Assembly: GCA_018650445.1 (NCBI GenBank)
Contig: JABIFX010000208.1
Coordinates: 124,001 to 188,000 of the forward strand
DNA length: 64,000 nt
Reading direction: 5' to 3'
DNA from: Fidelibacterota bacterium
Lineage (GTDB): Bacteria; Fidelibacterota; UBA8477; JABMPR01
Shown here: in pieces, positions 34,150-36,692 of the stretch
How the letters are laid out: the number at the start of each line of letters is the position of its first letter
Position numbering within the stretch: position 1 is the first letter of the stretch
Notes under the pieces: model-generated
Seen by the model: the letters and a program-made list of their open reading frames with translations, nothing else
The model's database searches: none
Told to the model about the DNA's origin: nothing
Translations under genes and position numbers: made by a program

Positions 34150-35217
34150 ATGGAAAGTAAGAAAATGCCTGAACAACAAGAAATATCCCTTTCCATTCTA
34201 AAGAAGCGTTGGCTTAAATTCAAAACCTTGAAAAGGGGATACTATTCATTCGTCCTCTTGGTTATCCTGTATATCCTATCGTGGTTTTTACCCCTGCTTG
34301 TTAATAATCGCGCCCTGGTACTCAGCTATGAGGACGAGATGTATTTTCCAATTATCTCAGGATACTATGCTGGTTCAGAATTTGGGCAAGACGTCCCCGG
34401 TGAGACCATTTATAGAGAACTCCAGGCTACATGGGAATCTGAAAACAGTGAAAACTGGGTAATTATGCCCATCTATCCATACAGCCCATTCGAAGACATA
34501 ACGGTTGCTGGAAATAAAATGTATGACCCCCCTTCCAATACACATTGGCTGGGTACTGACAACACAGGACGAGATGTCTTTGCCAGGCTATGTTATGCCT
34601 TCAACATCTCCATCTCATTTGCCCTGGTTCTCACCATCCTGAACTACATCATCGGTGTAATTATTGGCGGGAGTATGGGCTACTTTGGCGGGAGGTTTGA
34701 CCTCTTCTTTCAACGAATAATCGAAATCTGGTCCAGTCTGCCCATGTTGTTTGTAATCATTATTATCAGCTCCATCATTCGTCCTTCCTTCTTCTTGTTG
34801 ATTTTCATCTACACCATCGTCAACTGGATTGGCATGACCTATCTCATGCGGGCAGAATTTTACCGCGAAAAATCCAAGGATTATGTTGCGGCAGCCCTGT
34901 CCATGGGACAGACAAACTTCAAAGTGATGTTTAAGCACATTCTTCCCAATGCCATGGTACCGATCATCACCTTTTTCCCTTTTGCTATTGTTGGTGGAAT
35001 CTCAGCATTGGTGAGTCTTGACTATCTCGGGTTTGGAATGCCACCACCGACGCCCAGCTGGGGCCAGATGTTAGATGTTGGCCTTCAAAACATTACTAAA
35101 GCCTGGATGGTCTTTGCCCCAATTTCGGCTCTCTTTTCAACATTGATAATGGTTGTCTTTATCGGGGAGGCTGTACGCGAAGCTTTTGACCCCAAAGTAT
35201 ATTCGAGGTTACGATGA
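34150..35217 (+). CDS. yejE: Peptide ABC transporter permease (YejE-like)
   Basis: A 355-residue partner permease. After the first helix (~30-48) comes the YejE-type periplasmic stretch (YEDEMYFPIISGYY..., FGQDVPGETIYRE, and YPYSPFEDITV). Then HWLGTDNTGRDVFARL leads into five helices with the EAA loop (AALSMGQTNFKVMFKHILPN). It starts 2 nt after the YejB-like stop and overlaps the next ATPase gene by 4 nt. It forms the second half of the translocation channel. Confidence 0.92.
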   Translation: MESKKMPEQQEISLSILKKRWLKFKTLKRGYYSFVLLVILYILSWFLPLLVNNRALVLSYEDEMYFPIISGYYAGSEFGQDVPGETIYRELQATWESENSENWVIMPIYPYSPFEDITVAGNKMYDPPSNTHWLGTDNTGRDVFARLCYAFNISISFALVLTILNYIIGVIIGGSMGYFGGRFDLFFQRIIEIWSSLPMLFVIIIISSIIRPSFFLLIFIYTIVNWIGMTYLMRAEFYREKSKDYVAAALSMGQTNFKVMFKHILPNAMVPIITFFPFAIVGGISALVSLDYLGFGMPPPTPSWGQMLDVGLQNITKAWMVFAPISALFSTLIMVVFIGEAVREAFDPKVYSRLR

Positions 35218-36692
35218 GTCGGGAAAAACTGGTAGAAGTCAAAGGGCTTAAAACCCGATTCAAAGTTGGTGGAGAATGGGCCAAAGCAGTCGATGGTGTC
35301 AGTTTTGATATCTACGAAGGTGAGACACTGGGCATCGTAGGAGAATCAGGTTCAGGTAAATCGGTTTCCGTGCTCTCCTTGATTCAACTCATACCCAATC
35401 CTCCAGGAGAAGTTTCAGACGGCGAGATTATTTTTAAAGGGCAGAAGATTTTTGATGCTGATGATCTGGCCCGCGTAAGAGAAGTTGCCAAGTACAAATA
35501 CTTCCCGAAACTGCCTGAAGAGAAACGTAACACCGCTGCTGGCATCTTCTTTTGTGTCTGGATGCTCATCCACATTCTTTTGCCAATAAGTGGGTTGGCC
35601 TGGGGCATTTTGTCACTTGTCATAGATCTGTCTGTTATGGTCCATCTTTTTTACAACTCACCCAGGAATGTTGCCATGGCAGAGTTCAGACAAAACATCT
35701 ATAGTCGCATGTGGGATATTCGCGGGTCTGAAATCGCCATGATTTTCCAGGAACCCATGACATCCTTAAATCCAGTTTTCAATATTGGTATGCAAACGAT
35801 GGAAGCCATTAGGCCCACTAGCTTGAGAGACTCCCTGAAAGCCTGGTTTGTGAGTCGGGCCAAGAACTTGAAAAGCTATTCTGTTAAAGGTCGGGCACAA
35901 GTATCTGGCATTTTTGCAGTGGTTGTTCTCTTCTTTTCGCAACTGGCTGCCGGGTGGAGTTTTGACCCGCTTGCAATGTTGATTAGTTTTATTGTCGGTG
36001 CACTGGTACCAACAGGGATTGCTTATTTGATAATCGGCATAGAAAAGTTGATTAGCGATGAGTTTAAAACGCGCCACCAGGATCTTTTTAATGCTGCTGT
36101 TAAGCTATTGGACACTGTCGGTATCCCCGATGCAGAGCGACGGATAGGTGACTATCCCCACCAGTTTTCAGGAGGTATGCGCCAGCGCGTCATGATCGCC
36201 ATGGCATTGGCAAAAAATCCTTCTTTGCTGATTGCTGACGAACCAACCACAGCTCTTGACGTAACCATTCAGGCCCAAATCCTGGATTTGATGTTGGACC
36301 TTAAGAAAAACAATACTGAAGCTGCTGTGGTTTTAATCACTCATGATCTGGCTGTTGTAGCTGAGACCTGTGAACGGGTTATTGTGATGTATGGCGGGGT
36401 TATTCAGGAGGTAGCTGAGGTAAATGACCTGTTTAGTAAGCCACTGCACCCCTATACGCATGGATTGCTGGGTTCAATACCCAGGCCAGACAAGAATTCT
36501 AAACGGGAGCGCCTGGAAACGATTCCCGGTATGGTTCCCAATATTCTTAATTTACCCATTGGGTGTAAATATTGTACGCGTTGTACCGTAAAATTAGATA
36601 AATGTGATACAGAAGAACCACCACTTCAGGAGATAACCTCAGGTCATTTTGTGCGCTGTTTTGTGACCCAGGAAGAGCAGGTGTCAGCATGA
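35214..36692 (+). CDS. Peptide ABC transporter ATPase (DppD-like) with two membrane-hairpin insertions
   Basis: A 492-residue ATPase; relatives are ~330. All catalytic motifs are present: Walker A GESGSGKS (43-50), Q-loop [11 protein letters not shown] (177-187), signature FSGGMRQR (318-325), Walker B LLIADEP (338-344) and H-loop THDLA (376-380). Two insertions break the domain. The first (~85-165, between Walker A and the Q-loop) has a hydrophobic hairpin at 109-147. The second (~200-290, between Q-loop and signature) has hydrophobic runs at 230-247 and 252-277. Both have even helix numbers, so the catalytic parts can stay cytoplasmic. The C-terminal peptide-transporter domain has Cys 451, 454, 457, 464 and 482, a possible Fe-S site as known for DppD. 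It overlaps both neighbours by 4 nt. Confidence 0.93.

Follow-up and report, generated by a model that had tools for sequence, protein, structure and literature searches.

To our knowledge, the ATPases of ABC importers are peripheral proteins held mainly by coupling helices. The E. coli-type ATPases DppD and OppD have no membrane segments, and their solved chains (8z1v, 8z21) comprise 323 to 327 residues. Excerpts of a study of E. coli DppBCDF describe a salt bridge between Lys243 of DppB and Glu114 of DppD at the coupling-helix contact, and show that, when the inward- and outward-facing states are compared, the helical lobe is rotated some 20 degrees relative to the RecA-like lobe (PMC12136057). 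In the same excerpts, C284, C290, C297 and C315 of DppD are given as [4Fe-4S] ligands, Cys-to-Ser changes disrupt the complex, and the cluster is reported to be indispensable (PMC12136057).

The window analysed here, i.e. the whole stretch of 64,000 nucleotides, contains five co-directional genes that form an operon of a peptide-type ABC importer, encoding a substrate-binding protein, permeases B and C, and the ATPases D and F (Table 1). The D gene shares an ATGA overlap with the permease C gene at its 5' end and with the F gene at its 3' end, and carries two in-frame inserts within the nucleotide-binding domain (NBD). As stated in the original prediction, which had been made from the sequence alone, the catalytic motifs are intact: Walker A, Q-loop, signature, Walker B and H-loop (His377) are all present in D and are invariant in the 42 inserted proteins aligned; the D-loop of D is formed by residues 346-349. 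The Pfam oligo_HPY match of D is intact (69.9 bits against a curated cut-off of 27.1) and its ABC_tran match is broken into two stretches. The partner F, described from the outset as normal, has no insert and a single unbroken ABC_tran stretch (34-194). The motifs, C-terminal region, operon make-up and four cysteines of D are those of the oligo_HPY group, and judging from the motifs, the operon and the Cys site D is an ATPase of the peptide/opine/nickel-type ABC importers. By analogy with DppB-DppD, it is most likely the ATPase on the permease B side.

Table 1. Features of the importer operon and of ATPase D, with positions in the window.
Feature	Positions	Strand	Remarks
Substrate-binding protein (SBP_bac_5, family 5), 639 aa	30818..32737	+	
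Permease B (YejB/DppB-like), 425 aa	32870..34147	+	
Permease C (microcin C permease/DppC-like), 355 aa	34150..35217	+	
D, OppD/DppD-type ABC ATPase, 492 aa, two inserts	35214..36692	+	open reading frame; Pfam/NCBIfam
Walker A GESGSGKS, residues 43-50	35340..35363	+	invariant in 42 inserted proteins
Insert 1, residues 84-162, 79 aa, Walker A/Q-loop interval	35463..35699	+	helices 102-122 and 128-147, predicted hairpin; then polar helix 150-169
Q-loop Gln179	35748..35750	+	
Glu197	35802..35804	+	counterpart of E114 in E. coli DppD by alignment; insert 2 starts 7 residues further on
Insert 2, residues 204-284, 81 aa, Q-loop/signature interval	35823..36065	+	polar helix 204-221; predicted hairpin 224-245 and 252-279
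ABC signature FSGGM, residues 318-322	36165..36179	+	
Walker B LLIADEP, residues 338-344	36225..36245	+	
Predicted [4Fe-4S] ligands C451, C457, C464, C482	36564..36659	+	alignment with E. coli DppD
F, partner ATPase without inserts (OppF/DppF-like), 334 aa	36689..37693	+	

Comparison of D with known ATPases

D shares with E. coli DppD and OppD the NBD fold, the motifs, the C-terminal [4Fe-4S] ligands and the coupling glutamate. Its core superposes on OppD with a TM-score of 0.86 by target; over both proteins the scores are 0.83-0.86 with an rmsd of 5.0-9.1, the alignments bridging the inserts. The E. coli chains lack the inserts, and D differs from these peripheral proteins by two hairpins that are predicted to be membrane-embedded. 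D scores below the NCBIfam cut-offs for E. coli-type DppD/OppD (319.8 against 575 and 308.6 against 541), as does a plain relative without inserts, L012 (364.1 against 541 and 351.2 against 575). The best-scoring solved sequences by profile are those of M. tuberculosis OppD Rv1281c/DppD (8j5q, 8wd9), which are peptide importer ATPases like D but have two ABC domains per chain (548-612 aa) and, as seen when a plain D was aligned to them, no matching inserts.

The mollicute OppD family (NCBIfam NF043079, 561 positions) bears about 220 extra profile positions within ten residues of the insert 1 site. When the plain D of L012 was aligned to this profile, its residues 10-78 fell on positions 2-69 and 88-128 on 298-338, and the alignment was gapless from 339. 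The insert 1 site therefore tolerates insertion in a distant lineage. Nothing is found in this family at the insert 2 site, and its insertion is nearly three times longer. D was rejected as a member of the mollicute type, since it has two inserts (79 and 81 aa) rather than one long insertion and reaches 309.5 bits against a cut-off of 740. Large extra stretches within the NBD are seen in both NF043079 and NF043078 (mollicute OppD and OppF). A search with the mollicute OppD family matched 11 non-mollicute genomes among the 14 used as controls.

Large insertions in an ABC ATPase domain are also present in CFTR (the regulatory insertion), in ABC-F proteins (the arm) and in Rad50/SMC proteins (the coiled coil), but these are soluble and lie at other positions and in other systems, whereas those of D are predicted membrane hairpins. 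ABC exporters and ABCG-type half transporters carry membrane helices on the same chain as an NBD, as is predicted for D. Their membrane domain is attached to one end of the NBD and itself makes up the pathway, whereas in D the putative helices lie inside the NBD and separate permeases provide the pathway. In searches of open-access PMC literature, no report of membrane hairpins within an ABC importer ATPase was found. The hairpin-bearing D is a variant of a known transporter type, rather than a new system.

Position and conservation of the inserts

The bounds of the inserts were set by an alignment of 97 D proteins, 42 with inserts and 55 without, and the two hydrophobic inserts anticipated between Walker A and Q-loop and between Q-loop and signature were found at residues 84-162 and 204-284 relative to the 55 plain homologues. 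All 42 full-length inserted homologues have an insert 1 of exactly 79 aa and an insert 2 of exactly 81 aa, though the sequences vary, and the stretch corresponding to residues 1-480 of D measures 478 to 480 residues overall in these proteins. Trp248 and Phe250 are invariant, and Gln243, Gly262 and Pro266 are kept in at least 90% of the 42. The G+C content of insert 1 (0.460) and insert 2 (0.444) is nearly equal to that of the remaining D gene (0.458), which was counted against chance or artefact. No Pfam family reached its cut-off in the inserts (six pieces from three proteins). An origin of one insert by duplication of the other was rejected (hhalign probability 0.3% between the two profiles).

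Median dN/dS was compared among 16 proteins of the window's genus group. The core gave 0.032, dS being usable in 28 of 120 pairs, whereas insert 1 gave 0.158 (38 pairs) and insert 2 gave 0.193 (34 pairs); these values are rough because dS is near saturation. The ratios of the inserts are five to six times that of the core, yet well below 1, and on this measure the inserts are under purifying selection that is weaker than on the core.

Distribution and origin

When 245 Neomarinimicrobiota genomes were searched with a profile of each insert alone, inserts were found in 44, of which 43 had both complete and one had them split at contig ends; the search for homologues with the same insertions thus yielded 43 further genomes of the phylum. 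The insert 2 profile matched all 44 (E 4.5e-16 or better) and the insert 1 profile matched 43 strongly (E 1.4e-34 or better). At E<=0.01 the latter reached 49 genomes, i.e. these 43, a contig-edge piece in G178 and five weak matches (G047, G050, G052, G103, G163). In G178, D and the piece of insert 1 lie at the edges of two different contigs; in G240, the gene is divided between two contigs, the break being 3' of both inserts. Every carrier has both inserts in one copy each, and a single insert alone occurs in none of the 44 (for G178, as judged from the contig-edge pieces). The carriers span 12 family groups (f1-f5, f7, f8, f19, f21, f22, f24, f25), and the full-length inserted relatives are 57-92% identical to the D of the window. 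We regard this insert pair as real, conserved and spread widely across the phylum.

In a tree of D from which the insert columns were omitted, the 42 inserted proteins fell on one side of a branch (support 100/99) and 40 plain ones on the other. According to this grouping, the insert pair arose once. Outside the phylum, no match to the insert 1 profile was seen in 19 genomes with other close plain homologues (E<=0.01), in 200 genomes from the phylum of L021 or, at E<=1e-4, in 294 genomes from the class of L012, a set that overlaps the sample of the L012 phylum. Weak matches (E 3e-4 to 3e-3) occurred in 4 of 395 genomes from the phylum of L012 and 1 of 199 from that of L014, and none of these five places had an ABC-ATPase-like frame of more than 250 aa. 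No ABC ATPase with an insert 1 match was therefore present in the evenly drawn samples of these three other phyla. Among the 80 loci listed from a wider contig scan, the three with inserts were all from Neomarinimicrobiota, and the other 77 matched neither insert profile.

Predicted structure and membrane features

AlphaFold2 modelling of the window's D alone (65 sequences) gave a mean pLDDT of 84 and a pTM of 0.72, with 83-93 in the insert blocks and 87-93 in the hairpin blocks. Both inserts, which the original prediction had held to be of hairpin size, were modelled as helical hairpins with the helices given in Table 1, the turn being 5 residues long in insert 1 and 6 in insert 2; the second hairpin is followed by a helix at 282-301. 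A model of L116, a 60%-identical D of another family (42 sequences), showed the same helices shifted by one residue, with the exception of a longer helix (149-171), at lower confidence (mean 76.3, pTM 0.67).

Over the 42 proteins, the best 18-residue windows of hairpin helices 1 to 4 had mean Eisenberg hydrophobicities of 0.49, 0.71, 0.60 and 0.81, with moments of 0.10-0.22. On the same scale, the helices of both permeases gave 0.67-0.86; helices 2 and 4 are within this range, helix 3 is slightly below it and helix 1 is marginal (0.30-0.63). The helices flanking the hairpins are polar and amphipathic (-0.39 to -0.07, moments 0.31-0.37). The top windows of F and of four plain D proteins (0.43-0.61) overlap with helices 1 and 3, so that hydrophobicity alone cannot decide for those two. 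Apparent insertion energies, calculated with a segment threshold of 2, had medians of 0.7-1.0 for the hairpin helices, single proteins ranging from -1.5 to 3.3 with maxima of 2.8 for helix 1 and 3.3 for helix 3, and were below 0 in just 6-9 of the 42 proteins per helix. The permease helices gave values in an overlapping range (-1.1 to 1.5). A free scan of the window's D found three segments rather than four, one of them across the turn of insert 1. The same scan found four segments each in L116 and L112, and none below the threshold in F and the four plain D proteins tested.

The hairpin turns hardly contain any Lys or Arg (mean 0.05 over 42 proteins), and the four flanks contain on average 4.2, 6.8, 3.9 and 2.9, with net charges of +2.2, +4.5, +2.8 and +0.3. 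This pattern fits a cytoplasmic location of both ends of each hairpin, with the flank after helix 4 giving the least clear signal. On the basis of these predictions, the inserts are best read as membrane hairpins, and we have considerable confidence in this reading. Taken together, the helical hairpin models, the largely permease-like hydrophobicity and the positive flanks point to D being, most probably, a membrane-integral ATPase with its anchor next to the permease, and the self-anchored ATPase originally put forward is, by prediction, the likeliest reading.

Apparent replacement of D and F by a plain pair

Nine operons of the phylum have plain D proteins (L139, L140, L141, L145, L147, L148 and L177 in f19; L149 and L150 in f22) together with permeases near those of the window (69-75% for permease C and 64-68% for permease B; L140, permease C only). 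In the permease trees, eight of the nine nest among the hairpin operons. Forcing the hairpin operons together was rejected (p-AU 1.8e-4 for permease C and 3e-6 for permease B; 33 proteins each, the constrained group having been named after the trees were seen). In the D and F trees, the hairpin operons are on one side of a branch. From this difference between the trees, D and F appear to have been swapped jointly for a plain pair in at least two places. Since two lineages have a plain pair under closely related permeases, the hairpins seem to be dispensable for transport as such.

All four cysteines of the [4Fe-4S] site are present in all 42 inserted D proteins, and in 38 of 40 of their F partners; the remaining two (L109, L121) are truncated by contig ends. 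Among the plain pairs, D lacks two of the four ligands in 9 of 9 cases, and F is short in 8 of 9 (frames of 294-305 aa), ends before the cluster region and has none of the four cysteines; that of L145 is cut by a contig end. As Cys-to-Ser changes break the E. coli complex, the plain pair must be held together otherwise.

A second, divergent operon type is found in the phylum (L138, L142, L144, L146, L176), with permease C at 41-47% to that of the window; L143 and L175 are of the same type, with permease C in two frames. This type likewise has a cluster-free F, and its D is without the second cysteine. It is a likely source of the swapped pair.

At 191 conserved positions of permease B, 13 changes were counted in the G154/G156 group and 39 in the f19 group, 18 of the latter stemming solely from one shortened frame (L147), against 2-10 in eight control clades. 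At 167 conserved positions of permease C, the swapped groups had 9 and 11 changes and the controls 1-14. Asp244 of permease C, in the coupling-helix region, was changed in 6 of 6 f19 members and in neither of the two members of the second group, F having been replaced as well. As far as these sequences tell, permease positions did not clearly co-vary with the presence of the hairpins. In L168 (4766-7195, G025), permease B and apparently permease C share one frame of 810 aa, a possible B-C fusion, and in L161 (2244-4190, G180) the gene of the substrate-binding protein is in two frames of 496 and 152 aa.

Proposed arrangement and role of the hairpins

Glu197 of D corresponds by alignment to Glu114 of E. 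coli DppD and is invariant in 65 proteins (alignment A2). With this residue at the coupling-helix contact and insert 2 beginning at 204, insert 2 most likely emerges on that side of the helical lobe which faces the permease. Insert 1 precedes the Q-loop strand in the RecA-like lobe and we infer that it also faces the membrane. As the lobes rotate against each other in the E. coli structures, a membrane domain shared by both inserts would bridge parts that move relative to one another.

Both inserts would run from the cytoplasm to the periplasm and back, giving D four extra membrane helices. Hairpin 1 would leave the RecA-like lobe just ahead of the Q-loop strand, and hairpin 2 the helical lobe just past the helix that touches the coupling helix of permease B; the hairpins may pack on each other and against permease B. 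They would then serve as a permanent membrane tether of the ATPase and, by spanning both lobes, which rotate by about 20 degrees in E. coli Dpp, could act as a clamp embedded in the bilayer that stabilises the assembly and tunes the power stroke. Such a tether and clamp role is plausible. For the account as a whole, i.e. a D with membrane hairpins that pairs with permease B and is tethered and clamped by them, we estimate a probability of about 0.6.

Alternative explanations

An artefact of assembly or binning is refuted to near certainty. Most of the assemblies are fragmented into tens to hundreds of contigs, but the same inserts recur in 44 of 245 genomes, including G003, which was assembled as a single contig. 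The 43 further genomes remove this objection, against which the original prediction had cited the reading frame and the overlaps on both sides. The hairpins might also not cross the membrane, lying on its surface or resting, without spanning, against the cytoplasmic ends of the permeases. The marginal helix 1 (mean 0.49), median insertion energies (0.7-1.0) that are not clearly negative and the short turns would suit such an arrangement, but helices of 20-28 residues with low moment, near-chargeless turns and positive flanks fit spanning, and helices 2 and 4 are in the permease range with helix 3 slightly below; we consider it unlikely.

The remaining alternatives concern function. As a module that docks with or senses another membrane protein or lipids, the hairpins would regulate the ATPase rather than anchor it, and the conserved Trp248, Phe250, Gln243, Gly262 and Pro266 at the turn and in the helices, as well as the rise of the hairpins from two lobes that move against each other in E. 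coli Dpp (PMC12136057), could be explained in this way. Five genes suffice for the importer, and such a role is doubtful. The hairpins could otherwise be functionless passengers at surface loops that tolerate insertion, given the relaxed dN/dS of 0.16-0.19 against 0.03 in the core, the insertion at the insert 1 site in the mollicute OppD model and the takeover by plain pairs in two lineages. This neutral elaboration is improbable: the inserts are free of indels in all 42 proteins, none of the 44 carriers in 12 family groups has lost just one hairpin, and passengers do not behave in this way.

Significance

A membrane-tethered D that pairs with permease B is thus retained as the main reading. 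It would raise, tentatively, the prospect of a class of integral-membrane importer ATPases, in which a four-helix intramembrane domain built from both moving lobes lets the bilayer tether the ATPase and mechanically couple to its motion. As closely related permeases occur with hairpin-bearing or with plain ATPase pairs, nature seems already to have carried out the deletion experiment. With membrane helices of its own in both lobes, such an ATPase would offer a natural test of how firmly an NBD can be held in place while still working.
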